The translations under genes were made by a program, and so were the position numbers. Shown in pieces: positions 5,793 to 42,648 of a DNA stretch of 64,000 nucleotides. The DNA comes from Myxococcota bacterium (lineage in GTDB: Bacteria; Myxococcota; B64-G9): positions 310,001 through 374,000 of the forward strand of contig JAKLGA010000002.1 in assembly GCA_022710975.1 (NCBI GenBank), given 5' to 3'. The notes below the pieces were generated by a model. The model saw only the letters and a program-made list of their open reading frames with translations, did not search any database and was not told the origin of the DNA. Each line of letters begins with the position of its first letter. The stretch's first letter is position 1.

Positions 5793-5814
5793 ATCGCCGA
5801 AATATCGGGACGAC

Positions 5815-5844
5815 TTGACGGGGCGGCAGGAGGGCTCCTACACT
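5815..5844 (+). promoter_or_regulatory. Sigma-70-type promoter of the zinc-ribbon ORF
   Basis: TTGACG (5815-5820), an 18-nt spacer and TACACT (5839-5844) predict a start near 5851, giving a leader of about 28 nt before the ORF at 5879. Confidence 0.5.
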
Positions 5845-5878
5845 GCCTGCTGGACGTTCCTCGACCCGGAGGCCCATC

Positions 5879-6094: not shown

Positions 6095-6096
6095 CC

Positions 6097-6936: not shown

Positions 6937-7038
6937 GGATCCGGCCCTCCTTGGCGGTCTCGGGCTGTTCGGCCACGTCCACCCACCCGCCATGCATGCC
7001 ACGGCCGAGGCGAACCAGTCAACCCGCGGGACCCGCGT

Positions 7039-8823
7039 TCAGGGCTCGTCCTGGGTGAGCGGCGTTCCGCTCCCCGCCCCGCTGGCCGGACCGGGCGCCT
7101 CCCCGGCCCCGTCTGGCGGCGCGGGCTCGGGGCCGCCGCCGTACATGCGCGCGAGCTGCGCGCCGTTGTAGTAGTGCGCCAGGATCTCGTCGTAGGTGTG
7201 GCCCTGCTCGGCCATGCCCGTCGCGCCGACCTGGCACAGCCCCGCCCCGTGCCCCCAGCCGCCGCCGACGAAGCGGAAGCCGACCACCATCTGCTCGGCG
7301 TCGAGCTGCGGCTCCACCTCGAACATGGCGCTCTTCAGCCAGCCGAAGAGCTGGCGGATGGGCAGCTCGCGCTGCACCACCAGATCGCCCTCCGCGCCCA
7401 CCACGCGCACGACCAGCGCCCGGCCCGAGGCCCCGCGCTGGAGCACCTGGATGGACAGGATCGGCCCGAGCGGCTTCACCGCGGCCACCAGGCGCTCCAC
7501 CTCGGCGGCCGGGATGACCTTCTCCCAGCGGAACAGGCCCGGCCGGGCGAAGGAGGACAGCTGGCAGTAGGCCGGCGGCCTGGCCCCGAGCCACTCCCCG
7601 AGCCGGCGGGCCAGCCCGCCCTGCCAGCGGGAGGCCTCCCGGGCCGGCATGTCGGGCCGGCCGCGCAGGGCCGGGCTCGGGGGGTGGGCCCACACGGCGT
7701 CGTTGTCCTCCGTGTGCCCGCCGCACACGGCGCTGTAGACCGAGTCCACCAGCTCCGCGCGGTGGAACAGGAGCTGCCCGCGGGTCGCGCGCACGGCCCG
7801 GCTGGCCCGCGGGTGCTCGGCGCCCACGCCCGAGTAGACCTGGCAGTGGGTCTCGGCGCAGAGCTGGAAGGGCTCCAGGAAGTGGCGGGTGCCGATCTTG
7901 GCGAACACCTCCCCGCGGGCCACCACGGCCTGGGCCTTGAGCGCCTCCATGGGGGCCGTGGGGAAGATCTCCGCCGGCACGAGGCCCTCCAGCAGGCGGT
8001 CCGCGTCGACGCGGTTCACCACCACCAGCCCGCCGCGCCGGTCGAGCGTCACCAGGATCTCCCCGGCGAAGCGCCGGTCCTCGAAGCCGTGCCAGGCGTA
8101 CCCCCGGCCGTACTCCACCCGGTGCACGACCACCGGCGCCTCGCCTGCGGGCCTGGCCTCGGCCAGCTCGAAGATCGTCTCCTGCACCCCGCCGCGCGGA
8201 TCGAGCAGGCGGATGGAGCCCGAGGGCCGCCTGGCCAGGTGGGCGTGCACGAAGGTGCGGCTGCCGTGCCGGCGGAAGAGCTCCTGGGCGGCCAGCTCGG
8301 CCTCGGCCTCGGTGGGGAAGGCGCGCACGCCGAGCAGGTAGGTGCGGTTGTCGATCACCCGCCCGCCCAGGCCGAACACCGAGCCCACCTCGAAGACCTG
8401 CACGTCCTCGCCGCGCCCGGACCACAGGCGCATGGCCTGGGCCAGCTCGTCCGTGCGGGCGAAGGGCAAGCTCTCCACCGCGCACCAGTAGGCCACCTGG
8501 GCCGGCTGGAAGTCCGCCGCCTCCAGGGACCAGCGCACGCCCGGGGGCACGCGCAGCTCCTTGGCGACGAGCTGCCCCTCGACCTCCACCCGGCCGCGCA
8601 GCACGAGCCCCCCGGGCGAGGACAGCTCGACCCGCGCCTGCTGCTCCATCAGCCCGATGGTCACCAGGGGTGTGCCGGTCGGGCCGAAGTGGATCTGGGA
8701 GGAGTACAGCAGCCCGAGCTCGTCGCCGCCCAGGCCGTCCGGCTCCTCGGCCCGGGCCGGCGGCGCCCAGGCCAGCAGCGCCAGGGCCAGGCTCAGGAGC
8801 CGGATCTCAGGCGTTCGGGCCAA
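7039..8823 (-). CDS. Exported SpoIID/LytB-domain protein
   Basis: The likely start is TTG at 8823 preceded by GAGGTG, giving a 594-aa protein with a Sec signal peptide ending APPARAEE. It overlaps the end of the upstream lipoprotein gene by 31 nt, so translation may be coupled. The C-terminal half is a SpoIID/LytB domain: MEALKAQAVVARGEVFAK, QLCAETHCQVYSGV, AVCGGHTEDN and FVGGGWGHGAGLCQVGATG. SpoIID in sporulating Firmicutes is a peptidoglycan lytic transglycosylase; LytB modulates an amidase. In this Gram-negative setting it most likely modifies envelope peptidoglycan. The Pro/Gly-rich C-terminus (about 560-594) looks unstructured. No longer in-frame start is supported. Confidence 0.85.
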   Translation of the reverse strand: MARTPEIRLLSLALALLAWAPPARAEEPDGLGGDELGLLYSSQIHFGPTGTPLVTIGLMEQQARVELSSPGGLVLRGRVEVEGQLVAKELRVPPGVRWSLEAADFQPAQVAYWCAVESLPFARTDELAQAMRLWSGRGEDVQVFEVGSVFGLGGRVIDNRTYLLGVRAFPTEAEAELAAQELFRRHGSRTFVHAHLARRPSGSIRLLDPRGGVQETIFELAEARPAGEAPVVVHRVEYGRGYAWHGFEDRRFAGEILVTLDRRGGLVVVNRVDADRLLEGLVPAEIFPTAPMEALKAQAVVARGEVFAKIGTRHFLEPFQLCAETHCQVYSGVGAEHPRASRAVRATRGQLLFHRAELVDSVYSAVCGGHTEDNDAVWAHPPSPALRGRPDMPAREASRWQGGLARRLGEWLGARPPAYCQLSSFARPGLFRWEKVIPAAEVERLVAAVKPLGPILSIQVLQRGASGRALVVRVVGAEGDLVVQRELPIRQLFGWLKSAMFEVEPQLDAEQMVVGFRFVGGGWGHGAGLCQVGATGMAEQGHTYDEILAHYYNGAQLARMYGGGPEPAPPDGAGEAPGPASGAGSGTPLTQDEP

Positions 8824-29265: not shown

Positions 29266-30513
29266 TCAGAAGCGGAAGGTCCCCGAGAGGCTGAAGCCCC
29301 CGTCGCCGGGGACGAACCCGAGGCTGGCCGCCGACCCAGGTTGGTCTTCGCCTGGCTCATCCCCTAATAGAACCAGGATGAGGGCCGTACCCAGCAAAGC
29401 CGCCCCGGTTCCCAGGAGCACGGCCCCTGGCACCAGCGTGTCGTAGATCTCGGGGCAGCGCACGCCAGATGGGGCGTCACAGGTCCCCTGGCCGTCCAGC
29501 CCGACCAGCACGCCTCCCGGCACGCTCGCGGCCAGCCCCAGCCCGAGGGTCACCCAGGCGTAGGTGCTCGGCTGCGCCCACCACGGCCTGGGCGCCGGGA
29601 CAGGCTGGGCCTTCACCACGGGCGCGGCGAGAGGCGGCGCCGCGATGCTCGGAGGCGCGGGCGGGGCTTCCACCACCAGCCTGGCCTCGGAGACCGGTCC
29701 AGCCAGGGGGGCCGCGAGCCCGGCCCGGACCAGGATCTCCCCCGGGCCGGCTCCGGCGGCGAGGTGCAGCATGGCCTCGAAGTGCCCGGGCGAGGTCTCC
29801 CGCGGGCTGTCGATGTCGGCCCCCTCGGCCAGGAGCAGTACCGGGGCCTCGGCCCAGGGTCGGCCGGCCGCGTCCACCGCGAACAGGTGCAGGCGGGCCT
29901 CGCGTTGGTCGGGAAGACACAACCTGGTCGTCTCGGCCAGCAACCACAGCGGCTCGAGCGCGGGCACCCCCAGATCGATGGTGCGCCGGTCGCCGCTCTT
30001 GAGGATCAGCTCGCCCTGCTCGGTGCCGGGCGGGGCCTCGAAGGGCATCACGGCCAGGCCGCGAGCATCGGCGTGGATCGGGCCGAAGGAGCGGCCCGCC
30101 ACCTCCAGCGAGACCTCGGCCCCGGGCTCGGTTTCCACCCGGACCGTGCCCGCGCCCCACAGCGGCAGCGCGACCCAGGCCAGCGCCCGGCCCGGCAGGC
30201 GCGCCACGAGGATCTCGAGCTGCGGGAAACGCGCCGCGGGCGGACGGTACTCCGCCTCGAACCGGCCGGGACCGACCGCGCGCAGCGGACCGACCGCCCC
30301 CAGCCGGACGAGCACCTCCGGAGCGGCGGCGTGGTCCGGCGCGCCCGCCCCGTCCCCCACCTGGATCCTCACGCGGACGAGCTCCACCTGGCCCAGGACC
30401 AACGAGGCGGGCTCCAGCGCGATCTCGAGGCGACAGGCCGGGACCTGCGGGGGCTGCGCGGCCTGCACCGCGAGCCAGATGATTCCCAGCCAGCATGGCG
30501 TGACGCAGGGCAT
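29266..30513 (-). CDS. Putative envelope protein with beta-sandwich domains and C-terminal membrane spans
   Basis: The 415-aa protein has an N-terminal signal or anchor (LGIIWLAVQAAQPP), then two or three Ig-like beta domains (about 25-290; LEIALEPASLVLGQVELVRVRI and EAMLHLAAGAGPGEILVRAG). A Pro/Ala-rich linker (about 295-325) leads to two hydrophobic segments (about 330-352 and 372-393) and a short tail. No known family is recognised. The Shine-Dalgarno sequence is poor, so the start at 30513 is provisional. It ends 9 nt from the convergent beta-helix gene. A membrane-anchored surface protein is inferred. Confidence 0.7.
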   Translation of the reverse strand: MPCVTPCWLGIIWLAVQAAQPPQVPACRLEIALEPASLVLGQVELVRVRIQVGDGAGAPDHAAAPEVLVRLGAVGPLRAVGPGRFEAEYRPPAARFPQLEILVARLPGRALAWVALPLWGAGTVRVETEPGAEVSLEVAGRSFGPIHADARGLAVMPFEAPPGTEQGELILKSGDRRTIDLGVPALEPLWLLAETTRLCLPDQREARLHLFAVDAAGRPWAEAPVLLLAEGADIDSPRETSPGHFEAMLHLAAGAGPGEILVRAGLAAPLAGPVSEARLVVEAPPAPPSIAAPPLAAPVVKAQPVPAPRPWWAQPSTYAWVTLGLGLAASVPGGVLVGLDGQGTCDAPSGVRCPEIYDTLVPGAVLLGTGAALLGTALILVLLGDEPGEDQPGSAASLGFVPGDGGFSLSGTFRF

Positions 30514-30558
30514 CGCGGGGGACTCTAGCCGCCCGTGACCGGGCTGGCAAGGGCCCCC

Positions 30559-30636: not shown

Positions 30637-31674
30637 ATGCGGGCAGGCTGGACGATCACCGTGGCGATGGCGGCCGCGCTCGCGGCCGCGGGCTGCGAGG
30701 ACTCGCGGCTCCTGGTGCGCCAGCCGCCCGGCGAGCACCTGGACGTGTTCCAGCAGACCCCGGCCCCCACCGTGGACGTGCTGTGGGTGGTGGACAACTC
30801 GGCCTCCATGGCCGAGGAGCAGGAGGCCCTGGCCCAGAACTTCGGCTCCTTCCTCGAGTACCTGCAGGACACGGGCGCGAACTACCACATCGGGGTCATC
30901 TCCACCGACGTGTACAGCGAGGGCCACCAGGGGCGGCTGCAGGGCACGGTGCCCTTCATCAGCCCGCTCACCCCCTACGCCCCCGACGTCTTCGCCGAGA
31001 ACGTGCGCGTGGGCACCGAGGGCAAGGGCGACGAGCAGGGCTTCCGCGCGGCGCTGCTGGCGCTCGACGAGCCCCTGGTCAGCACCGCCAACGCCGGCTT
31101 CCTACGCGAGGCGGCCTACCTGTTCCTGATCTTCGTGTCCGACGAGGACGACAAGTCGTTCGGGGACGTGGGCTACTTCGTGCGCCGCTTCGAGCAGATC
31201 AAGGGAGTGGGCAACGACGGCATGGTCAACATCGGCGCGGTCGTGGAGACCGAGCTCGGCACCTGCCCCGACGCAGAGCCGGGCGTGCGCTACGCCGCGC
31301 TGGCCGCCGAGGTGGGCGGGCTGGCCCGCTCCATCTGCGGGGACTTCGGCGGGGCCCTCGACGCGCTCGGCTTCTCGGCCGCCGGCCTCAAGCGCAACTT
31401 CTCCCTGAGCCTGCCCGCCGTGCCCGAGTCCGTGGCGGTCTGGGTCAAGACCCCCTGCGGGCGGCCCTGGGCCAGCGCCGGGCTGTGCGCCGAGGTGTTC
31501 GACGACTGCGGCGGCCAGTCCTCCGAGGTGTTCGGCGCCACCTGCGTGCTGCGCCAGGCGCTCCCGGACGGGTGGTCGTACGACCCGGACACCGGCAGCG
31601 TGCGGTTCCACGGCGCGGCCGTGCCGCCCTTCGGCGCGGTGATCGAGGTCGGCTACATCCTGGAGGAGGACTAG
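30637..31674 (+). CDS. VWA-domain lipoprotein
   Basis: The ATG at 30637 follows AGGGAG. The signal ends LAAAGCEDS, a lipobox. A von Willebrand A domain fills about residues 40-260: VLWVVDNSASMAEEQEAL carries the metal-ion-dependent adhesion motif DxSxS, followed by GVISTDVYSEGH and FLIFVSDEDDKSFGD. VWA domains bind protein or polysaccharide partners through the metal site. The C-terminus (about 270-345) carries several Cys. It is the first gene of a run whose members are 2-19 nt apart or overlap by 4 nt. The binding partner is unknown. Confidence 0.88.
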   Translation: MRAGWTITVAMAAALAAAGCEDSRLLVRQPPGEHLDVFQQTPAPTVDVLWVVDNSASMAEEQEALAQNFGSFLEYLQDTGANYHIGVISTDVYSEGHQGRLQGTVPFISPLTPYAPDVFAENVRVGTEGKGDEQGFRAALLALDEPLVSTANAGFLREAAYLFLIFVSDEDDKSFGDVGYFVRRFEQIKGVGNDGMVNIGAVVETELGTCPDAEPGVRYAALAAEVGGLARSICGDFGGALDALGFSAAGLKRNFSLSLPAVPESVAVWVKTPCGRPWASAGLCAEVFDDCGGQSSEVFGATCVLRQALPDGWSYDPDTGSVRFHGAAVPPFGAVIEVGYILEED

Positions 31675-31676
31675 CC

Positions 31677-33131
31677 ATGCGCCCCCGCGCGCTCGCCCAG
31701 GCCGCCTTGCTGGCCGCCCTGTCGGCCGCGCTCGGCGCCTGCGACGACAGCGGCCTGCGCCTGGCCCCGCCCGACCTGCAGCTCGGCGCGGATCAACTGG
31801 ACTTCGGCGCGGTGGCGGTCGGGCGGACCGAGACGCGCCGGCTGGTGGCCCGCAACCTGGGCGACGGCCCGCTGCGGCTGGAGTACGCGCTGGAGGGCCA
31901 GGACGGCGGGGCCTTCGGCATGACGCTGGCCCCCCCGGAGGTCGCGCCCGGCGGGCTGGTCGAGCTGGAGGTGGCCTTCGCCCCCCCGGACGACCGGCGC
32001 TTCGAGGCACTGCTGGTGCTGCTGTCGAACGACCCCGACCAGGCGCGCGCCGAGGTGCGGCTCGGCGGCGACGGCTTCCGCAGCGGCGCCCTGGAGGTGG
32101 AGCCCAGGGAGGTGGACTTCGGGCTGGTCGCGGCCGGCCAGGTGGGCCTGGGCCAGGTGACCCTCCGCAACGCGGGCGACGGCGAGCTCCTGGTGCTGGG
32201 CATCGAGCTCGGACAGGACACCCACCCGGACTACCAGATCATGACGTCCACCCGCACCCCGGCCGACCTGGCCGGAGGCGCCGAGGTGCGGCTCAACCTG
32301 GCCTACCGCCCGGACGGGGACAGCCAGCCCCCGGGCCTGGGCCGGCTGGTGGTGAGGGCCGCCGATCCCCGGAACCCGCGGGTCGAGGTGCTGCTGCGCG
32401 CCGGGCTGAATCGCGCCCCGCTGGCGGACGCCGGCGCGGACCAGCAGGTCGCGCCCCTGTCCGAGGTGAGCCTGGACGGCTCGGCCAGCTCCGATCCGGA
32501 CGGCGACCTGCCGCTGACCTTCGCCTGGAGCCTGGCGCGGGCGCCCGAGGGCTCCAGCGCGGCGCTGCTCGACGCGGACCTGCCCGTCGCCCGCCTGGTG
32601 CCCGACCTGGTGGGGCTGTACGAGGCCGAGCTGTGGGTGACCGACGCGACCGGGCTGCGCAGCCTGCTGCCCGACCGGGCCGCGATCACCGCGCTGCCCG
32701 CCGAGCGGCTGCTGGTGGAGCTGGTGTGGGACTCGCCGCTCGGGGACCTAGACCTGCACCTGATCTCGCCTGGCGGCGCCTTCGGCGGGCTGCTGGACTG
32801 CTTCTACGCCAACCCCGCGCCGGACTGGGGCGTGTCCGGCGACAGCGCGGACGACCCCCGGCTGCTGCGCGACGACCTGGCCGGCTTCGGCCCGGAGACC
32901 ATCGGCTACGCCGCGCCCATCGACGGGAGCTACGTGGTGAGCGCGCACTACTTCGCGGCCCACACCCCCTCCGGCAGCGAGCCCACCACCGCCACCCTGC
33001 GCGTGTTCGTGGACGGGCTGCTGGCGGCCGAGGTCACCCGGCGCCTGCAGTCCCAGGGGGAAACCTGGGAGGCGGTCCGGGTGCAGTGGCCCGAGGGCGT
33101 GGTGAGTCCCCTGGACGGAGGCGCGCCATGA
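31677..33131 (+). CDS. Lipoprotein with ASH, PKD and YfaP-like (DUF2135) domains
   Basis: The 484-aa protein starts 2 nt after the VWA gene, with GGAGGAGG upstream, and has a lipobox (LGACDDS). Two ASH/Hydin-like beta domains follow (about 30-130 and 135-240; LDFGAVAVGRTETRRLVARN and VDFGLVAAGQVGLGQVTLRN). A PKD domain occupies about 245-335 (NRAPLADAGADQQVAP, SLDGSASSDPDGD). A C-terminal module starts LLVELVWDSPLGDLDLHLIS and resembles YfaP/DUF2135. These modules are scaffolds or binding domains; no enzyme is visible. It overlaps the next gene by ATGA. Confidence 0.88.
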   Translation: MRPRALAQAALLAALSAALGACDDSGLRLAPPDLQLGADQLDFGAVAVGRTETRRLVARNLGDGPLRLEYALEGQDGGAFGMTLAPPEVAPGGLVELEVAFAPPDDRRFEALLVLLSNDPDQARAEVRLGGDGFRSGALEVEPREVDFGLVAAGQVGLGQVTLRNAGDGELLVLGIELGQDTHPDYQIMTSTRTPADLAGGAEVRLNLAYRPDGDSQPPGLGRLVVRAADPRNPRVEVLLRAGLNRAPLADAGADQQVAPLSEVSLDGSASSDPDGDLPLTFAWSLARAPEGSSAALLDADLPVARLVPDLVGLYEAELWVTDATGLRSLLPDRAAITALPAERLLVELVWDSPLGDLDLHLISPGGAFGGLLDCFYANPAPDWGVSGDSADDPRLLRDDLAGFGPETIGYAAPIDGSYVVSAHYFAAHTPSGSEPTTATLRVFVDGLLAAEVTRRLQSQGETWEAVRVQWPEGVVSPLDGGAP

Positions 33132-34597
33132 GCGCTCTGCGCCCGGGAGGCTGCGCGCTCGCCCTGCTCGCCCTGCTCTCAGGCTGCGGCGGCGGGACCC
33201 AGGGCCAGGGCGACGGCGGTCCGGATCCGCAGGCCTGCCAGAGCCGCCTGGACTGCTCCGGCCGGCTGGGCTGCACGGACGGGCTGTGCGGACGCTGCCA
33301 GCGCGACCGCGACTGCCTGGTCACCGAGTTCTGCCACCCCCTGGACCAGCTCTGCTCGCTGTTCGTCGAGGGCGAGTGCGCCCTCAATCAGGACTGCGCG
33401 CTGGGCGAGTTCTGCGTGCAGGGCAGCTGCAAGCCCGCCAGCCAGGTGGTGGCCTGCCGGGACGCGGGCGACTGCGCGGCGGGCGAGCGCTGCGACCCGC
33501 TCAACCTGGTGTGCGTGCTCGATCTGGGTTGCAACCGGGACGAGGACTGCGCCGCGGGCGAGGTGTGCAGCGTGGCCACCCACCGCTGCGAGAGCGCCTG
33601 CACGCCGGCCACGCAGGAGGTCATCTGCGGGCAGGGCCTGTTCTGCGACACCTTCGGCCGCTGCGTGGAGTGCTTCGAGGACGATCAGTGCGGGCTGGGC
33701 CTCACCTGCAACCTGGAGGTCCAGCGCTGCGAGGGCCAGAACAGCTGCCTGACCAGCCGCGACTGCGACCCCGGCCTGGTGTGCAACCCGCAGACCCGCC
33801 AGTGCACCAGCCCGCCGCCGGCCTGCCTGTCCAACGCCGACTGCCCCACGGGCAGCCAGTGCGACCCGGGCAGCGGCGCGTGCGTGTCCGCGGAGTGCCG
33901 CCCGGACGGCCTCGAGCCCAACGACTTCCCGGAGAGCGCCGCGCCGCTGGCGACCGGCCGGCACGAGCGGCTGAACCTGTGCCCGGGCGATCGGGACTTC
34001 TACGCGCTCGGCCTGGTGCGCGGCGACCGGGTGCAGGTGATCGCCACCACCGACTTCCTGTCGTCCGACAGCTTCCAGCTGGTGCTGCTCGATCCGACCG
34101 CGAGCGAGGTCCTCCAGGAGGGCTCGCTGCTGCTGGACCACGTGGTGGCCGGCACGGGGACGCACCTGGTGAGGGTGCAGACGCTCGACCCGCAGGCGAG
34201 CTACGCGCTGCTGGTGACCGTGACCCGCGGGGTGCCGTGCGACGACGACGCCCGCGAGCCGGACGACTCCGCCCTGCAGGCGCGGCCGATCGCGCCGGGC
34301 AGCTACCCGGGGCTGGCGCTGTGCCCGCAGGACGAGGACTGGTACAGCCTGGAGCGGCCGCTGGGCGCGCGCCTGCTGGCCCGGCTGAGCTACCCGGCGC
34401 TGCAGGGCGATCTGGACCTGGATCTGGTGGCGGGCGACGGGCAGACGCTGGTGATGCGCTCGGCCACCGCGGGCGACACCGAGGTGGTCTACGCGGAGGG
34501 CGGCCCGGGCACGCGCTACTACCTGCGGGTGTACGCCGAGGGCTCCAACCAGAACCGCTACCAGCTCGACGTGGAGCTGACGGCCGGGGAACGCTGA
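33128..34597 (+). CDS. Cys-rich lipoprotein with two PPC-like domains
   Basis: ATG overlaps the previous stop (ATGA). The signal ends ALLSGCGGG, a lipobox. Residues about 30-260 are a run of Cys-rich units (DRDCLVTEFC, DCALGEFCVQGSC, DCAAGERCDP) resembling the two paralogues further downstream. Two PPC-like beta-sandwich domains follow (about 260-370 and 375-485; LEPNDFPESA, CPGDRDFYAL and EPDDSALQA, CPQDEDWYSL). PPC domains bind surface polymers or aid secretion. No enzymatic domain is seen. A structural role in a multi-protein surface complex is inferred from the operon. Confidence 0.88.
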   Translation: MSALRPGGCALALLALLSGCGGGTQGQGDGGPDPQACQSRLDCSGRLGCTDGLCGRCQRDRDCLVTEFCHPLDQLCSLFVEGECALNQDCALGEFCVQGSCKPASQVVACRDAGDCAAGERCDPLNLVCVLDLGCNRDEDCAAGEVCSVATHRCESACTPATQEVICGQGLFCDTFGRCVECFEDDQCGLGLTCNLEVQRCEGQNSCLTSRDCDPGLVCNPQTRQCTSPPPACLSNADCPTGSQCDPGSGACVSAECRPDGLEPNDFPESAAPLATGRHERLNLCPGDRDFYALGLVRGDRVQVIATTDFLSSDSFQLVLLDPTASEVLQEGSLLLDHVVAGTGTHLVRVQTLDPQASYALLVTVTRGVPCDDDAREPDDSALQARPIAPGSYPGLALCPQDEDWYSLERPLGARLLARLSYPALQGDLDLDLVAGDGQTLVMRSATAGDTEVVYAEGGPGTRYYLRVYAEGSNQNRYQLDVELTAGER

Positions 34598-34614
34598 AGG
34601 GCGAGGGTGAGCTC

Positions 34615-37600
34615 ATGCGCGCGCGGCGAGCACACACGGTTCGGGCGGGCGGGCTGCTGGCCCTGGCGACCGCGGCGCTGCTGGCCGTGGGCTGCCCGGA
34701 CGCGGGGCCCGCGGCCGACGCCGGGCCGGACGCCGACGCCGACGGGGGGCCGGACGGGGACGCCGACGGCGGGCCGGACCAGGACGCCGACGGCGACGCG
34801 GACGGAGCGGACGACGGGGCCGACGCGGGCCCGGTCGAGCTCGGCCTGGGCGCGGTCCTGCCCTCGCGCGGCCCGACCGAGGGCGGCACCTGGGTCAACC
34901 TGTTGGGCGAGGGCTTCGTGCGCGGCATCGGCGAGAGCCCCTTCGACGCCCGCGACGTGACCGACGTGACCTTCGGAGACAACCCGGCCATCGACATCGA
35001 GGTGGTGCGCGACGACATGATCAGCGTGCGCACCCCGCCCGGGCTGGCCGGGCCGTGCCAGGTGGTGGTCGAGAACCCCAACGGGCGCGTCGTCCTCCCG
35101 GGCGGCTTCACCTTCTTCGACAAGCTGATCACCGGCCAGGTGAGCCCCACCGATCTCGCGGCCGGGGGCGGCACGCCCTTCACGGTCGAGGGCTCCGGCT
35201 TCACCGCCGACACCCGGGTGCTGGTGGGCGGGCGGCTGGCGCCCTCGCTCGAGCTGGAGAGCGCCGAGCTGCTGCGGATGGTGGCCCCGCCGGGCGCGCC
35301 CGGCCTCGCCGACCTCGAGGTGGTCAACCGCAACGGCCGCGCCCTGATCTACCGCGGCATGCGCTACCACGCCCGCCCGGAGCTGACCGGGCTGGAGCCC
35401 CCGGCCGGCCCGGCCGAGGGCGGCACGCCCGTGGCGATCCGCGGTCTGGGACTCGAGCCGGGCTGCCAGGTGTGGATCGGCGGCGCGCCGGCTGCCGGCG
35501 TCACCTGGGTGGCGGACGACCGGCTGGAGGCCGTGAGCCCGCCGGGCGCGGCCGGACCGGCCGAGGTGCGGGTCGCCTGCGCCGTGGAGGAGGCCCTGCT
35601 GGAGGGCGGATTCGTGTACCTGCCGCCGGCCACCGGGGCGCTCGGCCTGCTGGCGCTCGCCCCGCCGGCCGGCCCCGAGGGCGGCGGCCAGCGCGTGGCC
35701 CTGTGCGGGGAGGGCTTCGCGGCCGGGCTCGACGAGGTGCGCTTCGGCACGGCCGCGGCGACGGGGCTGTCGGTCCAGGACGACCGGCTGGCCTGGGCGA
35801 CCACCCCGGCGGGCAGCCCGGGCGCGGTGGACGTCGAGGTGCGCGCCGGCGCGGCCACGGCCCAGGCCCCGGCGGCCTTCCGCTACTTCACCCCGCTCGC
35901 GCTCGACGGCGTGGAGCCGGCCGAGGCGCCCGCCGCCGGCGGGGCGCCGTTCACCCTGCACGGGCACGGCTTCCACGCGGGAGTGGAGGTGCGGGTGGGC
36001 GGGCTGCCGGCCTCCGGCCTCGAGCTCGTGTCACCCGACGAGCTGCGGGCGATCAGCCCGCCGGGCTCCCCCGGCGCGGTCGAGCTCGAGGTGCGCGACG
36101 GAGACAGCCGCGCCAGCCTGCCCTGGCGGCTGACGGGCACGCTGAGCCTCCTGCGCGCGGAGCCCGACTCCGGCGGCCAGGCGGGCGGCACCTACGTGCT
36201 GCTGCTGGGCGACGGGCTGGGCGCGGACGCGCAGGTGTGGTTCGGCGAGCGCGAGGCCAGCGTGGTGCAGGCCCTGTCCACCAGCCTGCTGGCCGTGCGC
36301 AGCCCGCGCGGCGAGCCCGGCGAGGTGAGCGTGGCGGTGGAGCGCGGCGGGGCGCGGGCCGAGCTGCCCGGCGGCTTCTCCTACTTCGATCCCACCAACG
36401 ACCGAGGCGGCGCCTCGGGCGGCCCGCTCCAGGGCGCGCTGTACGTCACCGCGCTGGACGGCACGTACTCCAAGTACGGCCTCCCGCTGCCGGGCGCCAC
36501 GGTGCTGCTCGAGGAGCCGGCGCTCAACGGCCTGACCGACGACCGCGGCCAGGTCACCTTCTCGGGGCCGTCCCTGGTGCGGGCCGTGACGCTCACCGTG
36601 GCCAAGGAGGGCTACCAGGCCACCACCCTGGTGGGCCTGGACGCGGCCGCGCTGACCGTCTACCTGTTCCCCAACGAGCAGGAGCCCATCGACATCAACC
36701 CGGGCGATCCGCCCAAGCTGAGCGTGCTGTCCGGGCGCGTGTTCGGCTTCAAGGACGTGCCCTGGCTGCCGCTGCCGGCGGGCGCCCAGCTCGAGGCGCG
36801 GGTCGGCTCCACCTCCTACAGCCTCTACTCGGTGCCGCCCTTCGCCGGCGTGCCACAGGGGTTGCCGGTGACCGAGGACGGCGGCACCTACGAGTTCACC
36901 GTGCGGCTGGGCGAGTACAGCCTGGTGGCGCTGTACGGGGTGAGCGATCCGGCCCTGGGCACCTTCACCCCGGCCCTGATGGGCGTGCGCCGGGCCATCC
37001 AGGTGCCCAGCGAGGACCCGGTCTCCGGCCAGGACATCGTGCTGGGCACGGCGCTGGACCAGGGCGTGGTGGTGACCCTGGTCGATCCGCCGGTCGGCAG
37101 CCTGGGAGAGCCGGTGCAGTACGGGGCCTACGTGAGCCTGGACCTCGGCCGGGATGGCGTGGTCTACCTCGATCAGGCCAAGGGCGTCAGCAACATGCTC
37201 TCGCTCTCGCGCCTGCCCGCGGCCAGCGCGGACGCCTTCCTGTTCGTGGCCCAGGCCAGCAGCCAGGGCGGCTACCCCTACTCCTACGTGTTCGGCCGCC
37301 AGGCCGGCGACCTGTCCGGCGGCATCTCGCTCGGGCCCTTCCTGGGCTTCCCGCGCATCCTGAGCCCGGCCCCGGACGGCCCGCTCGAGGGCGGCCGGAT
37401 CGCCTGGCAGGTGGACGGACCCACGCCCATGCTCACCCAGGTGCTGGTGCAGACCGCGGAGCTCATCCCGCGCGTCCTGTGGCGGGTGGTGTTGCCCGGC
37501 GGGCAGACCGAGGTGACCCTGCCCGAGGAGCTGCTCGGGCTGCTGCCGCGCGGGGAGCCCCTGCTGATGCTGATCTACACGGCCAACTCGCCGCGCTTCG

Positions 37601-37686
37601 AGTTCGATCGCTTCAACTACGGCCAGCTCTCCACGGGCCGCTGGACCGCCTACACGGTCAACTTCGCCAGCTTCACCGCGCCCTGA
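34615..37686 (+). CDS. IPT/TIG-repeat lipoprotein
   Basis: The 1023-aa protein begins with a lipobox (LLAVGCPDAG) and a long Asp/Ala/Gly-rich spacer (about 25-70). Six IPT/TIG units follow (about 75-600), each with a G-T-x-V/F-x-L/I-x-G-x-G-F core such as LEPPAGPAEGGTPVAIRGLG and VEPAEAPAAGGAPFTLHGHG. Next is a carboxypeptidase-regulatory-like beta domain (about 605-690; GATVLLEEPALNGLTDDRGQ) and a beta-rich C-terminus (about 700-1023). This is a classic extended, rod-like surface protein. No catalytic motif is visible. It sits 17 nt after the PPC gene in the same transcription unit. Confidence 0.9.
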   Translation: MRARRAHTVRAGGLLALATAALLAVGCPDAGPAADAGPDADADGGPDGDADGGPDQDADGDADGADDGADAGPVELGLGAVLPSRGPTEGGTWVNLLGEGFVRGIGESPFDARDVTDVTFGDNPAIDIEVVRDDMISVRTPPGLAGPCQVVVENPNGRVVLPGGFTFFDKLITGQVSPTDLAAGGGTPFTVEGSGFTADTRVLVGGRLAPSLELESAELLRMVAPPGAPGLADLEVVNRNGRALIYRGMRYHARPELTGLEPPAGPAEGGTPVAIRGLGLEPGCQVWIGGAPAAGVTWVADDRLEAVSPPGAAGPAEVRVACAVEEALLEGGFVYLPPATGALGLLALAPPAGPEGGGQRVALCGEGFAAGLDEVRFGTAAATGLSVQDDRLAWATTPAGSPGAVDVEVRAGAATAQAPAAFRYFTPLALDGVEPAEAPAAGGAPFTLHGHGFHAGVEVRVGGLPASGLELVSPDELRAISPPGSPGAVELEVRDGDSRASLPWRLTGTLSLLRAEPDSGGQAGGTYVLLLGDGLGADAQVWFGEREASVVQALSTSLLAVRSPRGEPGEVSVAVERGGARAELPGGFSYFDPTNDRGGASGGPLQGALYVTALDGTYSKYGLPLPGATVLLEEPALNGLTDDRGQVTFSGPSLVRAVTLTVAKEGYQATTLVGLDAAALTVYLFPNEQEPIDINPGDPPKLSVLSGRVFGFKDVPWLPLPAGAQLEARVGSTSYSLYSVPPFAGVPQGLPVTEDGGTYEFTVRLGEYSLVALYGVSDPALGTFTPALMGVRRAIQVPSEDPVSGQDIVLGTALDQGVVVTLVDPPVGSLGEPVQYGAYVSLDLGRDGVVYLDQAKGVSNMLSLSRLPAASADAFLFVAQASSQGGYPYSYVFGRQAGDLSGGISLGPFLGFPRILSPAPDGPLEGGRIAWQVDGPTPMLTQVLVQTAELIPRVLWRVVLPGGQTEVTLPEELLGLLPRGEPLLMLIYTANSPRFEFDRFNYGQLSTGRWTAYTVNFASFTAP

Positions 37687-37705
37687 GGGAGGCGGGCACC
37701 CAGGC

Positions 37706-38719
37706 ATGCACCCCTCCCTCTCCCCCTGCCCAGCCCTGCGCTCCCTCGGCCCGCTGGCGGTCGGCCTGCTGGCGCTCGGGCTGCCCACCGGCTGCGACAC
37801 CGGCGCACAGCTCTCCACCATCTGCCGCGGGGACGAGGACTGCCCGCCCGGCTACCGCTGCGAGCTGTCCACGGGCCTGTGCCTGTGCGCCAGCGACGAG
37901 GTGTGCGGCCCGGACGAGTACTGCGCCCCGGACGGCCGCTGCCGCCGGCGCATGGCCTGCGACACGAACCTGGATTGCCCGCTGGGCACCTTCTGCGACT
38001 CGACCACCGGCAACTGCATCGAGCAGGACAAGTGCACCGACGACAAGCAGTGCCCGCTGGGGCAGATCTGCTCCGAGGTCACCTTCCGCTGCGCCCCGGG
38101 CTGCCGCCAGAACGGCGACTGCCCGCTGGGCGACGTGTGCCGCGAGGGCGCCTGCCGCGGCGGGCTGTGCGAGGACACGTCCTACTGTGCCTACGGCGAG
38201 CTGTGCGAGCCCGCCAGCCAGACCTGCTCCAGCCCCTACGACGACGAACTCGCCCCCTTCTGCGCCCCGTGCCGCCCGACCAGCGTGAGCGAGCCGAACC
38301 GCTGCGGCCCGGGCCCGAACTTCTGCATCATGACCGGCAACGATCCCTCGCTGGCGCCCTTCTGCGGGGTGGACTGCAGCCAGGGCCAGGAGTGCCCCAA
38401 CGGCTACGGCTGCCACCTGATCCTGACCGCGCCCGACGGGAGCTGCCAGGCGGACGGGGAGTGCCCCTCGGGGAGCTGCCACATCAACGAGGGCGACACG
38501 GTCGGCTTCTGCCTGTGCGCCACCGACGCCGAGTGCCCGCAGGACGCCTGCGACGACTTCGCCTTCGAGTGCCGCCTGACCCGCCGGCCCTGCAGCCCGG
38601 GCGGCGCCGAGTGCGATCGGCCCATCTACTGCATCGAGGGGCTGTGCCTGCTCGGCAGGAACTGCGCCCCGGTGGAGGGGCTGCGCTGCGCGGACCTCAC
38701 CGGCGGGGTGGCGCCGTGA
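37706..38719 (+). CDS. Cys-rich lipoprotein, copy A of a tandem pair
   Basis: The 337-aa protein has a lipobox (LGLPTGCDTG). It holds a chain of Cys-rich units such as CRGDEDCPPGYRCELSTGLC, CGPDEYCAPDGRC, DCPLGTFCDSTTGNC and DCPLGDVCREGAC. The second half is less regular (GPGPNFCIMTG, CSQGQECPNGYGC, DDFAFECRLTRRPCSPGG). It overlaps the next gene by GTGA. The first half is almost identical, at DNA level, to copy B; the second half is only related. No enzymatic domain is seen; a surface role is inferred. Confidence 0.87.
   Translation: MHPSLSPCPALRSLGPLAVGLLALGLPTGCDTGAQLSTICRGDEDCPPGYRCELSTGLCLCASDEVCGPDEYCAPDGRCRRRMACDTNLDCPLGTFCDSTTGNCIEQDKCTDDKQCPLGQICSEVTFRCAPGCRQNGDCPLGDVCREGACRGGLCEDTSYCAYGELCEPASQTCSSPYDDELAPFCAPCRPTSVSEPNRCGPGPNFCIMTGNDPSLAPFCGVDCSQGQECPNGYGCHLILTAPDGSCQADGECPSGSCHINEGDTVGFCLCATDAECPQDACDDFAFECRLTRRPCSPGGAECDRPIYCIEGLCLLGRNCAPVEGLRCADLTGGVAP
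37808..38208 (+). repeat. 401-bp direct repeat, copy A
   Basis: This block differs from 38791-39191 at only three bases over 401 bp (offset 983). Flanking sequence on both sides diverges sharply, so the block behaves as a unit of recent duplication or gene conversion. Confidence 0.95.
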
Positions 38720-39693
38720 GCCGGGCGGTCGTCACCTGCGGGCTGGTCCTGCTGGCCCTCCCGCTGCTGCCGGGCTGCGAGCAGAGCACGCAGCTCTCCA
38801 CCATCTGCCGCGGGGACGAGGACTGTCCGCCCGGCTACCGCTGCGAGCTGTCCACGGGCCTGTGCCTGTGCGCCAGCGACGAGGTGTGCGGCCCGGACGA
38901 GTACTGCGCCCCGGACGGCCGCTGCCGCCGGCGCATGGCCTGCGACACGAACCTGGATTGCCCGCTGGGCACCTTCTGCGACTCGACCACCGGCAACTGC
39001 ATCGAGCAGGACAAGTGCACCGACGACAAGCAGTGCCCGCTGGGGCAGATCTGCTCCGAGGTCACCTTCCGCTGCGCCCCGGGCTGCCGCCAGAACGGCG
39101 ACTGCCCGCTGGGCGACGTGTGCCGCGAGGGCGCCTGCCGCGGCGGGCTGTGCGAGGACAAGTCCTACTGCGCCTACGGCGAGCTGTGCGATCTCGACAG
39201 CGACAGCTGCTACGACCCGTACGATCCGGACCTCAGCCCGTTCTGCGACACGTGCCGTTCGGCCACCATCTACGAGCCGAGCCAGTGCGGCCCCGGGCCC
39301 AACTTCTGCCTGGTGCGCGCGGGCGACCTGACCCTGCCGCCCTACTGCGGCGTGGACTGCAGCCAGGGCCAGGAGTGCCCCAACGGCTACGACTGCTTCT
39401 CGGTGCGCATCGTGTACACCAGCGACAACTGCCGCAGCGACGCGGAGTGCGACTCGGGCAGCTGCTACATCAAGGAGGGCGACGAGCTCGGATTCTGCCT
39501 GTGCACCTCCATGGCGCAGTGCCCTCAGGACTCATGCGACGACTTCACCTTCGAGTGCCGCGTGACCCGCCGGCCCTGCACCCCGGGCGGAAACGAGTGC
39601 GACCGGCCCATCTACTGCATCGACGGCTACTGCCACATCGGCTACAACTGCAAGCCCGTCGAAGGGCTGCGCTGCGAAGACGTGCTACAATGA
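38716..39693 (+). CDS. Cys-rich lipoprotein, copy B of a tandem pair
   Basis: GTG start overlaps the previous stop. The 325-aa protein has a lipobox (LLPGCEQST). Its N-terminal half is nearly identical to copy A; the C-terminal half differs (DKSYCAYGELCDLDSDSC, GPGPNFCLVRAGD, CFSVRIVYTSDNC), though motifs such as CGVDCSQGQECPNGY and CDDFTFECRVTRRPCTPGG remain. The pattern suggests shared partner binding by the first half and separate specificity in the second. It overlaps the HEAT-repeat gene by ATGA. Confidence 0.87.
   Translation: MSRAVVTCGLVLLALPLLPGCEQSTQLSTICRGDEDCPPGYRCELSTGLCLCASDEVCGPDEYCAPDGRCRRRMACDTNLDCPLGTFCDSTTGNCIEQDKCTDDKQCPLGQICSEVTFRCAPGCRQNGDCPLGDVCREGACRGGLCEDKSYCAYGELCDLDSDSCYDPYDPDLSPFCDTCRSATIYEPSQCGPGPNFCLVRAGDLTLPPYCGVDCSQGQECPNGYDCFSVRIVYTSDNCRSDAECDSGSCYIKEGDELGFCLCTSMAQCPQDSCDDFTFECRVTRRPCTPGGNECDRPIYCIDGYCHIGYNCKPVEGLRCEDVLQ
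38791..39191 (+). repeat. 401-bp direct repeat, copy B
   Basis: Partner of the block at 37808-38208; three mismatches in 401 bp. Confidence 0.95.
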
Positions 39694-40541
39694 GCCCAGG
39701 TGGAACCGCACCCATGAGCACCGCTCGCACCGAGCCCCTCCATCCGCGCCGGCCGGTCTGGCTGCTGGGCATCGTCATGGCGCTGCTCGCGCCCAGCGGC
39801 GCCGCGGCCCAGGCCGACCCGGAGCTGCTCACGGCGCTCCAGGACTCGAGCTTCAAGGTGCGCCTGCGCGCCGCCGTGATGATCGGCAAGAAGAAGATGA
39901 AGGACGCCGCCCCGGCGTTGCGCAAGGCGCTGGAGGACGAGCAGGACGTGGTGCGCGCCGCGGCCGCCGCCTCGCTCGGCCAGGTCGGAGATCAGGAGTC
40001 GCGCCCGCTGCTGGCCAAGCTGATCAACCACTCCAGCGAGGCGGTGCGCAAGTCGGCCACCAAGGGCCTGACCGAGCTGGACGGCGCGCTCGGCGGACGC
40101 AAGTACCTGCTGGTGTTCGACCCCCCGGTGTTGCCGGCCGGTGTGAGCGCGGGCCAGGGCGCCCGGCTCCTGCGGGCGGTCAAGAAGGAGCTCGGCCGCA
40201 GCGCGGTGTCCGTGCCGAGCGTGGGCGAGGAGAGCGTGCTGCAGGGCGGCCCGCTGAACGAGCACATCGAAGCGCGCGGGCTGACCGGCATGCGCATCCA
40301 GACCAAGCTGGTCAAGCTGCAGGCCACCCAGAGCGGGGTGGTGTGCAAGGTGAGCATCATGGTGGTGACCGTGGCCCGCAACCGCATGGAGTTCGCGGGC
40401 AACGGCGAGGGCGAGGCCGAGGTGGACGGGGAGCTGGACGACGACACGCGGGTGGAGATCGAGGAGCAGCTCCTGGACGCCGCGGGCCAGGCCGCGGCGC
40501 AGGAGGTGTCCGGGTTCCTCACCCGCCGTACCGGTCCGTAG
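39690..40541 (+). CDS. Exported HEAT-repeat protein
   Basis: The ATG at 39690 overlaps the previous stop; an in-frame ATG at 39714 with GGTGG upstream is an alternative start. A signal peptide (about 28-45; LLGIVMALLAPSGAAAQ) is followed by two or three HEAT/PBS-lyase-like repeats (about 46-120; SSFKVRLRAAVMIGKKKMK and DEQDVVRAAAAASLGQVGD). A C-terminal alpha/beta domain (about 130-283) is not recognised. HEAT repeats are protein-binding solenoids. Its position between surface lipoproteins and the membrane protein suggests a periplasmic adaptor. Confidence 0.82.
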   Translation: MSPGGTAPMSTARTEPLHPRRPVWLLGIVMALLAPSGAAAQADPELLTALQDSSFKVRLRAAVMIGKKKMKDAAPALRKALEDEQDVVRAAAAASLGQVGDQESRPLLAKLINHSSEAVRKSATKGLTELDGALGGRKYLLVFDPPVLPAGVSAGQGARLLRAVKKELGRSAVSVPSVGEESVLQGGPLNEHIEARGLTGMRIQTKLVKLQATQSGVVCKVSIMVVTVARNRMEFAGNGEGEAEVDGELDDDTRVEIEEQLLDAAGQAAAQEVSGFLTRRTGP

Positions 40542-40558
40542 CCGGAGGAGAGTGTCCC

Positions 40559-41155
40559 ATGGCAGAGGCTTTCGATCCGAAGAAGAAGCGGCGCCTGCGG
40601 AACCTGCTGCTGGACAAGCGGTTCCAGCTCAAGTACACGGCGGCGGTGGTGGTGATCACCAGCCTGCTGTGCATCGTCCTGGGCTTCTTCCTGTACCGCT
40701 CCCAGCAGGAGACCTCCCAGGTGGCCCTGGTCGGGCTGGACGAGGAGGTCAAGGCCGCCATGAGCGACGAGCTGGCCAGCGAGGACCGCAAGGTCCTGTT
40801 CGTCCTGGTGGCTTGCCTGGGCGGCCTGGTGTTCGCCATGTCTCTCCTGGGCATCGTGGCCACGCACAAGATCGCCGGCCCGGCCTTCGCCGTGCGGCGC
40901 AACCTGTCGCGCATCGCCGACGGCGAGCTGCCCCAGGTGCGCGCGCTGCGGCCGGGCGACGAGCTGCAGTCCGTGGGCGAGGAGCTGCAGCGCATGGTGG
41001 GCACCCTGCGCGGGCGCGAGCAGAAGGACGTCGAGCTGCTGGCGAACACCATCCTGGCGCTGACCACCTCGTCGGCCTCGGGCCCCGATCCGGCGCTGCT
41101 CGAGGCGCTCAAGGCCGCCCACAAGGAGAAGCACGAGCGCCTCAACCAGGCCTGA
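40559..41155 (+). CDS. HAMP-like membrane protein
   Basis: The 198-aa protein starts after GGAGGAG. A basic N-terminus precedes TM1 (about 24-46; YTAAVVVITSLLCIVLGFFL). A short extracytoplasmic loop leads to TM2 (about 78-102), and a HAMP-like linker follows (about 104-155), beginning with THKIAGPAFAVRRNL and containing DGELPQVRALRPGDELQSVG. A coiled coil ends the protein; there is no kinase, cyclase or methyl-accepting domain. HAMP modules relay signals across membranes. It lies between an exported HEAT protein and a diadenylate cyclase gene, so a signal relay is tempting but unproven. Confidence 0.82.
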   Translation: MAEAFDPKKKRRLRNLLLDKRFQLKYTAAVVVITSLLCIVLGFFLYRSQQETSQVALVGLDEEVKAAMSDELASEDRKVLFVLVACLGGLVFAMSLLGIVATHKIAGPAFAVRRNLSRIADGELPQVRALRPGDELQSVGEELQRMVGTLRGREQKDVELLANTILALTTSSASGPDPALLEALKAAHKEKHERLNQA

Positions 41156-41201
41156 GCGTCCTCCCTGCCCGCGGCCCCCAGCCCCCCTCGCCTGCCAGGT
41201 T

Positions 41202-41231
41202 TTTGCGCCCGCGCGCGGCCTGCCGTACCAT
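41202..41231 (+). promoter_or_regulatory. Possible internal promoter for the diadenylate cyclase gene
   Basis: TTTGCG (41202-41207), an 18-nt spacer and TACCAT (41226-41231) lie in the 94-nt gap, the largest in the operon. The cyclase may be transcribed separately as well as by read-through. Confidence 0.35.
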
Positions 41232-41249
41232 GGCCGTGCGAGGTGAGGC

Positions 41250-42311
41250 ATGCCCAGCGCCGAGGACAAGCAGCAACCCAAGAAGGACACCACGGCCAAG
41301 GCGGAGCCCGCGCCGGCCTCGGAGCCCGCGGCCAAGCTCCCGGCCAAGCCCGAGCCGAAGGCCGAGGCCCCCCCTGGAAAGCCAGGGCCTGCCAAGCCGG
41401 AACCCCCGGCCAAGCCGCCCCCCAAGGAGCGCCCGCTGACCGAGCCGCAGGCCTTCCTGAAGGAGGCCCTGGCCGCGGCCCGGCACCTGGAGGTCGACCG
41501 GCTGCTGATGATCTGCGACGAGGCCGGGCCGCTCGAGCTGCTCATCGGCCGCGGGGTGAAGAAGAAGGCCGTGCTGGCCACCAGCTCGGAGAAGCAACAC
41601 CTGCGCTGCGAGGAGCTCGGCCTGGCCCACGTGGCCATCCCGCCCTTCGCCTTCGACCGGCTGGACAAGATCAAGGTCGCCTTGAGCGCCAGCCAGTCCG
41701 CCGGCAGCGTGGCGGATGGCGACTTGGTGTTGTGCCTGGTCGGCCGTCCGGGCTCACCCGAGACCGACACCAGCATGCTGACCCGGGTCGGGCAGCACTC
41801 GGAGGAGCAGTCGGCCCTGGGCGCGCTCATCGCCGGGGGCGAGGTCTCCCCGCAGGTGCTGGACGCCGTGCTGCAGATGGCGCTCAGCGTGGGTTTCGAC
41901 GGCATCGAGGGCACCCCGGTGGGCACCATCCTGGTGGTCGGCGACTCGACCGCCATCATGGAGAAGTCCAAGCAGCTCACCCTGAACCCGTTCCAGGGCT
42001 ACTCCGAGGATGATCGCAACATCCTGGATCCGAAGATCCGCGACGCGGTCCGGAACTTCTGCCTGCTCGACGGGGCCATCGTGGTGCGCGAGGACGGCGT
42101 GCTGCTGGCCGCGGGCCGCTACCTGCGCCCCCCGGAGACGCTGGACATCGACCTGCCCATGGGCCAGGGCACCCGGCACGCCGCGGCCAAGGCTATCACC
42201 CAGGTGACCCACGCGGTCGCCTTCGTGGTCTCGAAGACCACCGGCGCGGTCAGCATCTACCGCGCGGGTGGGCTGGTGGTGGAGATCAAGCAGCCGAGGA
42301 GAAGGACCTAA
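41250..42311 (+). CDS. Diadenylate cyclase-like protein (DacZ/CdaZ type)
   Basis: Diadenylate cyclases make the second messenger cyclic di-AMP from two ATP. The DAC domain fills about residues 190-350. Motif 1 is LLDGAIVVREDGVLLAAGRY (Asp274-Gly275-Ala276); motif 2 is GTRHAAAKAI (307-316), where the RHR of DisA/CdaA reads Arg-His-Ala. The ending AFVVSKTTGAVSIYRAGG is typical. Residues about 70-185 (RGVKKKAVLATSSEK, GDLVLCLVGRPG) resemble the pyruvate-kinase C-terminal-like domain of archaeal DacZ. The first 65 residues are a Lys/Ala/Pro-rich tail. Whether the Arg-to-Ala change leaves it active is unknown. It is the last gene of the lipoprotein operon. Confidence 0.78.
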   Translation: MPSAEDKQQPKKDTTAKAEPAPASEPAAKLPAKPEPKAEAPPGKPGPAKPEPPAKPPPKERPLTEPQAFLKEALAAARHLEVDRLLMICDEAGPLELLIGRGVKKKAVLATSSEKQHLRCEELGLAHVAIPPFAFDRLDKIKVALSASQSAGSVADGDLVLCLVGRPGSPETDTSMLTRVGQHSEEQSALGALIAGGEVSPQVLDAVLQMALSVGFDGIEGTPVGTILVVGDSTAIMEKSKQLTLNPFQGYSEDDRNILDPKIRDAVRNFCLLDGAIVVREDGVLLAAGRYLRPPETLDIDLPMGQGTRHAAAKAITQVTHAVAFVVSKTTGAVSIYRAGGLVVEIKQPRRRT

Positions 42312-42329
42312 GGTCTCCTCCGGAGACCT
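42311..42329. terminator. Hairpin shared by two convergent genes
   Basis: AGGTCTCC (42311-42318), loop TCC, GGAGACCT (42322-42329): a perfect 8-bp stem spanning both stop codons. There is no clear U-tract, so efficiency is uncertain. Confidence 0.55.
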
Positions 42330-42648
42330 AGCAGGAGCATTCTCCGCAGCTCTTGTCACCGCCCCTGGACAGCGGGATCTTGGGATCGACGCGGTAACCG
42401 CGGAAGAAGCCCTTCTCCACGAAGTCCACGCACACACCGCCCGTCTGCTGGAGCAGGGCCTTCTCGATCACCACCTTCAGGCCATCGAACTCGAACTTCT
42501 CGTCGGTCTCTTTTGGCTCATCCAGAGCCAATGCCAGGGTGGGCCCCGCTCACCCATGGGACAGGTAGATGCGGAAGGCCCCCTCGACCTTCTCGCGCTG
42601 CCCGAATTCCTTGAGCTTTGCCTGGGCGGACTGGGTCACCTCGACCAT
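42328..42648 (-). CDS. HesB/IscA-like selenoprotein with in-frame UGA (Sec33)
   Basis: ATG at 42648 follows AAAGGAG. The frame reads FRIYLSHG, then TGA (42552-42550), then AGPTLALALDEP without a frameshift, ending in SCGECSC and TAG. Read through, the 106-aa product is a complete A-type iron-sulfur scaffold/carrier (HesB/IscA) in which the first conserved Cys (normally GCxG after the second strand) is Sec33; Cys101, Cys104 and Cys106 supply the C-terminal ligands. HesB-like proteins are a reported prokaryotic selenoprotein family. A 7-bp hairpin starts 18 nt after the UGA, as needed for a bacterial SECIS. Ordinary calling would split this into two small ORFs. Selenocysteine genes (selA, selB, selC) are not in the window. 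Confidence 0.88.
42513..42531 (-). promoter_or_regulatory. Bacterial SECIS hairpin
   Basis: In the minus-strand mRNA, UUGGCUC, loop UGGAU and GAGCCAA form a perfect 7-bp stem with a G-containing loop. It begins 18 nt and its loop 25 nt downstream of the UGA, within the range for SelB-binding elements. Confidence 0.75.

Follow-up and report, generated by a model that had tools for sequence, protein, structure and literature searches.

Within a 64,000-nucleotide window of a Myxococcota genome (GTDB lineage B64-G9; GenBank assembly GCA_022710975.1, contig JAKLGA010000002.1, positions 310,001 to 374,000), which is the whole stretch of DNA analyzed here, nine plus-strand genes lie within positions 30637-42311 (Table 1). 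Eight of them are tightly packed, and the ninth, encoding a diadenylate cyclase, follows after a gap of 94 nucleotides (nt). The intergenic gaps are, in order, 2, -4, 17, 19, -4, -4 (or 20), 17, and 94 nt, the value before the HEAT-repeat gene being -4 or 20 nt according to whether 39690 or 39714 is chosen as its start. A preliminary description of the locus had reported nine plus-strand genes in this order and at this spacing, as the gene coordinates bear out, and had read them as one operon that relays a signal from surface lipoproteins to the cyclase. Gene content, conservation, order, linkage, and a promoter-like motif were computed for the window and its relatives, and the evidence now favors an operon of eight genes with a putatively separate cyclase next to it. 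On balance, we consider it probable that the locus holds three independently conserved units side by side: genes for a surface complex (unit 1), a HEAT-HAMP gene pair joined to the operon of that complex (unit 2), and a neighboring, separately transcribed cyclase (unit 3).

Table 1. Genes and promoter candidate of the stretch, with positions in the window and the evidence for each assignment.
Feature	Position	Strand	Evidence
VWA/MIDAS lipoprotein, gene 1 of the surface-lipoprotein module	30637..31674	+	Lipobox AAGC-E; DxSxS; partial NF052240 match; Foldseek
ASH (choice-of-anchor D) + PKD + DUF2135-like lipoprotein	31677..33131	+	Domains; module gene 2 in 19 non-family loci
Cys-rich lipoprotein with weak PPC-like C-terminal domains	33128..34597	+	Profile matches; conservation
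IPT/TIG-repeat lipoprotein with conserved C-terminal region of ~400 residues	34615..37686	+	PF01833, 2.6e-52, six stretches; NF058597
Cys-rich lipoprotein copy 1 (cys1)	37706..38719	+	334-bp block identical to copy 2
Cys-rich lipoprotein copy 2 (cys2), GTG start, 4-nt overlap with copy 1	38716..39693	+	
Exported HEAT-repeat protein with C-terminal alpha/beta domain resembling PelC/FlgT/CsgG, without lipobox	39714..40541 (possible start 39690)	+	
HAMP-like inner-membrane protein with two transmembrane segments, partner gene of HEAT	40559..41155	+	
Weak candidate cyclase promoter, TTGCGC-17-TACCAT	41203..41231	+	At the place of the relatives' stronger motif
DacZ-type diadenylate cyclase with Pro/Ala/Lys-rich N-terminal extension; putative separate transcription unit	41250..42311	+	

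The window's own family, presumably an uncultured family of myxobacteria, is labeled f1. Its loci were read with tblastn and profile searches, with gene calling trained per locus. The nine genes are kept in the same order in relatives at roughly 40-70% identity, and for this reason the arrangement was judged to be beyond chance. The full cluster is found in the f1 genomes G002, G005, and G007, and G008 has the same cluster with one Cys-rich gene. Partial clusters stand at contig edges in G003 and G004, the cluster of G006 (L110) is on a different contig from its cyclase, and the start of the cluster is found at a contig end in G001 (L111), a 70% complete genome with no DAC-domain match.

The products of genes 1-6 have signal peptides, and a lipobox is present in most family members. 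Among the module proteins called across all loci, a lipobox was recognized in 27 of 30 VWA, 26 of 31 ASH, 25 of 32 PPC, 22 of 32 IPT, and 27 of 32 Cys-rich proteins. The VWA protein encoded by gene 1 has no VWA match in Pfam and gives a partial match to NF052240, the NCBIfam family of metal ion-dependent adhesion site (MIDAS) adhesins (3.2e-14), with a score of 52.9 bits that is far below the 700 bits of the equivalog. Its motif, DNSAS, fits the pattern DxSxS, which is present in 23 of the 29 complete module VWA proteins, including all ten from f1. The predicted structure is of low confidence (mean predicted local distance difference test score, pLDDT, 62.6) and was on that account used as weak support only; the list of Foldseek matches is topped by integrin-beta chains. 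A sequence search of solved structures with the VWA profile found nothing. Because of the partial similarity to a Bdellovibrio MIDAS adhesin and the integrin-beta chains at the head of the Foldseek list, adhesion is the favored function, and the products of unit 1 look adhesive, with metal-dependent MIDAS contact with another cell or surface proposed.

The remaining module proteins are built from repeats and small domains. Gene 2 encodes ASH/HYDIN, choice-of-anchor-D, and PKD domains, together with a DUF2135 match that stays below the cut-off, and gene 3 matches Myxo_Cys_RPT at 25.3 bits (cut-off 25) and PPC below threshold (0.029). Gene 4 has six TIG stretches (Table 1). Genes 5 and 6 are Cys-rich paralogues for which profile search returned no family above the cut-off. 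The two genes share an identical 334-bp block (37844-38177 versus 38827-39160), which may have arisen by gene conversion or duplication in the recent past or else be an artifact of assembly.

The lipoprotein module was followed outside the family with profiles built from f1 proteins and, for ASH, also from four other families. Twenty-four non-family loci were compared, four of them picked by strong VWA matches and twenty by strong ASH matches. At 19 of these, representing nine families (f8, f23, f25, f26, f27, f28, f29, f30, and f31), VWA, ASH, PPC, IPT, and Cys-rich genes follow one another in this order on one strand, mostly at operon-like spacing, with overlaps or short gaps. The other five loci comprise one with three of the genes at a contig end, two with ASH-PPC, and two with ASH only. 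Two f1 genomes carry the module a second time, unaccompanied by HEAT, HAMP, or cyclase genes (L105 and L106, the latter cut by a contig end). Conservation of the order across families, together with these second f1 copies, indicates that unit 1 is an old module that is conserved independently of the genes now downstream of it. The gene order stressed in the preliminary description thus held in part: it is kept entire in f1 and as VWA-ASH-PPC-IPT-Cys elsewhere, but no cyclase was found at any of the 24 non-family module loci. HEAT and HAMP genes occur on the same stretch as the module at one of the 24 (L118), 6-8 kb upstream of it and as a separate unit. Pairs of VWA and Cys-rich genes without the rest of the module were also observed, at L116 (7540-9260; G000:C12, in the window's own genome), L121, and L123.

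The HEAT domain of gene 7 is solid in profile search, and a structural model of its product (mean pLDDT 86.7) consists of HEAT repeats followed by a C-terminal alpha/beta domain. PelC, FlgT, and CsgG are among the Foldseek matches of this model, and this likeness of fold points to the periplasm as the location of the HEAT protein. Two further comparisons added little: VIA-align mainly listed the repeat half of the model and was thus scarcely informative on the C-terminal domain, and the HEAT profile retrieved mostly designed alphaRep proteins from among solved structures, which are uninformative on function. The HAMP match of gene 8 is weak and sub-threshold in the window protein (16.9 bits, 0.0082), and a sequence search of solved structures with the HAMP profile found nothing. 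A HAMP homologue at L147, in another family, reaches 25.1 bits against a cut-off of 25. At that same locus, a gene for a Cys-rich lipoprotein with a Disintegrin match in Pfam (5805-7271; 2.2e-12) was observed directly upstream of the HEAT-HAMP pair.

HEAT and HAMP genes are also found together without the module. They are adjacent at 19 of 20 non-family loci from seven families (f3, f5, f8, f13, f23, f25, and f31), a figure that is not an unbiased rate, as the loci were chosen because both matches lay close (except L163, which has HAMP only). Genes for an OmpA-type protein, HEAT, HAMP, and a MIDAS lipoprotein follow one another in this order in both G107 (f13; gaps 16, 13, and 14 nt) and G159 (f23; gaps 62, 9, and 32 nt), and the pair in G047 (f8) is preceded by two genes for Cys-rich lipoproteins. 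Profile searches of neighboring proteins covered those of G107 and G047. Nothing speaks more strongly for a link of unit 1 with unit 2 in f1 than this repeated company with surface-type lipoproteins, although it was spotted at three neighborhoods among the 20 loci rather than in random draws; in f1, it is plausible that the lipoprotein module has been joined to the HEAT-HAMP pair.

The product of gene 9 matches PF02457 (DAC) at 69.3 bits, against a cut-off of 27. It matches the NCBIfam DacZ family at 1.3e-39 and 136 bits, below the equivalog's 430, and DacZ_P at 20.1 bits, below the cut-off of 27.4. Across 30 aligned cyclases, the D and G of the DGA motif are present in all 30 and the A in 29, and the R and H of the R-H region in 30 and 24, respectively. 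By its sequence, gene 9 is a DacZ-type diadenylate cyclase, with synthesis of cyclic di-AMP (c-di-AMP) predicted, and it is the single DAC-domain gene in the window's genome. Full-length cyclase matches were found in 30 of 58 genomes, eight of which belong to f1 (both counts include the window's own genome), and one more match lies at a contig edge. Matching genomes total 41, the other ten having weak partial DAC matches only. HAMP matches without a DAC-domain match occur in at least seven genomes that are 92-97% complete (G010, G017, G030, G041, G054, G056, and G159).

The preliminary description had tied the cyclase to the lipoprotein genes and had named, as observations that would refute it, an unlinked cyclase gene in relatives or an independent cyclase transcript. 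The tie is found in f1 and dissolves outside it, where the cyclase is unlinked throughout. At all 22 non-family cyclase loci, tblastn found none of the other eight genes near the cyclase, within an upstream stretch of mostly ~14 kb that is shorter at contig ends; the sole match, an incidental one to a TIG domain, lay on the opposite strand at L052. The separation is clearest in two genomes assembled as single contigs, namely G108, with the cyclase at 5.32 Mb and the module at 11.73 Mb, and G094, with cyclases at 1.32 and 2.39 Mb and the module at 4.02 Mb. Within f1, the gap between the HAMP and cyclase genes is 94 nt in the window, 285 nt in G002, 40 nt in G003, and 49 nt in G008 (181 nt with a later start), and other genes intervene in four of the eight genomes. 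An opposite-strand gene separates the two in G007, and open reading frames (ORFs) of 530 and 728 codons do so in G004 and G005, respectively; in G006, HAMP and the cyclase are on separate contigs, with other ORFs at both contig ends.

A promoter-like motif accompanies the cyclase as well. In seven relatives, a TTGA-type hexamer is separated by 17 or 18 nt from TAnnnT (or a near variant), and the motif ends 5-7 nt before the cyclase start, a short distance that suggests a message with little or no leader. A strict version of the motif (TTG[AC]NN-N17-TANNNT, at most 20 nt from the start) is present in seven of the eight f1 cyclase upstream regions (the window included), the other one missing it by an 18-nt spacer; among 46 regions upstream of the remaining eight genes, it is present in none. 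In 2,000 shuffles of the cyclase upstream regions, the mean number of fits was 0.012 and the maximum 1. The pattern was written after the motif had been seen, with C allowed at the fourth place so that the window counts; thus, the 46 control regions weigh more than the shuffles. Taken together, the unlinking outside the family, the inserted genes, the promoter motif, and the HAMP-bearing genomes without a DAC domain lead us to infer that the cyclase is a separate transcription unit with its own promoter. A promoter-like site similar in layout to the cyclase motifs was also noticed on the minus strand at 30522-30550, 8 nt before the start of a divergent minus-strand gene (29266-30513), and leaderless genes may be common here.

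The best reading of these comparisons is that the locus encodes an undescribed myxobacterial surface complex of MIDAS and other lipoproteins, which in f1 would be coupled to HEAT-HAMP. The lipoproteins of unit 1 (30637-39693) would reach the outer membrane or cell surface and assemble into one complex, whose integrin-like MIDAS protein may make metal-dependent contact with another cell or surface while the TIG protein (possibly a long rod), the PKD protein, and the Cys-rich proteins form its stalk. Unit 2 (39714-41155) pairs a HAMP protein of the inner membrane with a HEAT protein that is putatively periplasmic and has a PelC/CsgG-like domain. In this lineage, it would have joined the unit 1 operon, with which it is presumably co-transcribed, and its probable role is to inform the inner membrane of the condition of the surface complex. 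The cyclase of unit 3 (41250-42311) would most likely serve housekeeping synthesis of c-di-AMP as a neighbor only. Several observations weigh against this picture. The canonical DxSxS is absent from six of the 29 module VWA proteins, and some module proteins have no lipobox, owing either to miscalled starts or perhaps to real absence. The window's own promoter motif is weak and lies 18 nt from the cyclase start, such that the window alone would not reveal it. No terminator-like site was found in the 94-nt gap, and a HAMP transcript could read through. Finally, the cyclase lies at most 2.3 kb from HAMP in all seven f1 genomes that have both on one contig, a closeness that leaves room for some coupling.

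This persistent closeness, the order and spacing of the genes in the window, and the fact that the genome has a single cyclase would all be accounted for by a single operon of nine genes, with surface lipoproteins signaling via HEAT and HAMP to the diadenylate cyclase, as the preliminary description had it. Such an operon is now very unlikely, on comparative rather than RNA evidence, given the cyclase's own promoter motif, the insertions between HAMP and cyclase in four of eight genomes (including one opposite-strand gene), the unlinked cyclases at 22 of 22 loci outside f1, and the genomes that have a HAMP match but no DAC domain. The cyclase as output of the chain was rejected on this linkage, promoter, and phyletic evidence. 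What survives of the proposed outside-to-inside chain is its earlier part, in which exported lipoproteins are followed by a HEAT protein, predicted to be periplasmic, and by a HAMP protein of the membrane, an arrangement that does not vary within f1. There is a slim chance that three formerly separate units have become one trans-envelope relay in f1, with a MIDAS complex at the surface, a HEAT/PelC-like linker in the periplasm, and a HAMP protein tuning the adjacent DacZ, such that cell contact would set c-di-AMP.

Units 1 and 2 might themselves be mere neighbors, the module working alone and HEAT-HAMP being an unrelated envelope pair that landed downstream of it in the f1 ancestor. Each unit occurs without the other in most loci examined, and the two share a stretch at only one of 24 non-family module loci, as would then be expected; however, the junction between Cys-rich and HEAT genes is kept in all eight f1 genomes that cover it, with gaps of -4 to 125 nt, and in three more families HEAT-HAMP adjoins genes for other lipoproteins of the MIDAS or Cys-rich kind. 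We regard coincidental neighborhood as unlikely, albeit a serious contender. It is also conceivable, with low probability, that the module belongs to a Tad-like (Kil) or another pilus-dependent contact system, to which it would supply a receptor or adhesin in the outer membrane. A convergent gene for a TadA/CpaF-like ATPase, an identity profile-checked for one of the six copies (that of L112), stands at the 3' end of the module at six loci from five families (L112, L117, L124, L131, L136, and L137), and Tad-like Kil pili mediate contact killing by Myxococcus (PMC12075869). Yet in each of the six cases the ATPase is encoded on the opposite strand, no such gene was seen beside the module in f1, and the main text of PMC12075869 contains "vWA" once and "lipoprotein" never.

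The reading of three adjoining units, with a surface complex at its core, matters chiefly for the module itself: five to six genes for surface lipoproteins, including an integrin-like MIDAS protein, keep their order across ten of the phylum's families. Myxobacteria and Bdellovibrio depend on contact between cells, which requires adhesins. The module, which complete genomes such as that of G108 contain, can be tested directly, as can the HEAT-HAMP partners that part of the phylum has. The locus also illustrates that close packing of genes in a single genome may hint at a pathway which comparison with relatives contradicts.

Downstream of the cyclase, a HesB/IscA-like gene on the minus strand (42328-42648) contains a TGA codon in frame, at a position shared by the window, G007, and G006, and the window's genome has a SelB match above the cut-off. 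This gene is a candidate HesB-like selenoprotein gene, such proteins being a known kind of selenoprotein (PMC1794560). Its linkage to the cyclase was considered as the sign of a housekeeping block and set aside, being present in only four of eight f1 genomes.

Searches of the open-licence literature found no description of the lipoprotein module or of the HEAT-HAMP pair, nothing tying c-di-AMP to such lipoproteins, no paper combining HAMP domain, HEAT repeat, and Myxococcus xanthus, and nothing relevant on a TIG lipoprotein cluster. Several known systems are nevertheless similar in part. CglD and CglB, surface VWA lipoproteins of gliding motility in Myxococcus, resemble the gene 1 product as VWA lipoproteins from Myxococcota, and gene 1 partially matches CglD (NF033765); its score, however, is far below the cut-off, and the gene neighborhood differs. 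We know of no ASH, TIG, or Cys-rich partners of CglD or CglB. The C-terminal half of the HEAT protein shares its fold with PelC/FlgT/CsgG-like periplasmic and outer-membrane domains, but here the domain is fused to HEAT repeats, the protein has no lipobox, and the likeness is one of fold only, at 8-16% identity. The window cyclase has in common with DacZ-type cyclases the DAC domain and the conserved catalytic DGA and R-H region, and it may also share the DacZ_P-like N-terminal domain, matched below threshold, whereas the f1 cyclase carries a Pro/Ala/Lys-rich N-terminal extension and is not the haloarchaeal equivalog of NCBIfam. Bacterial relatives from Myxococcales had already been placed near the DacZ branch in 2019 (PMC6741144). 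Gene 1 also resembles the Bdellovibrio MIDAS-family adhesins (Bd0875 and Bd1483; NF052240) in its lipobox and partial profile match. As described in PMC11003981, the Bdellovibrio adhesin has a lipobox and a MIDAS domain inserted into a beta-rich part formed from the N- and C-terminal regions. The gene 1 product scores far below the cut-off of this family and, in contrast, is encoded within a conserved cluster of multiple lipoproteins.

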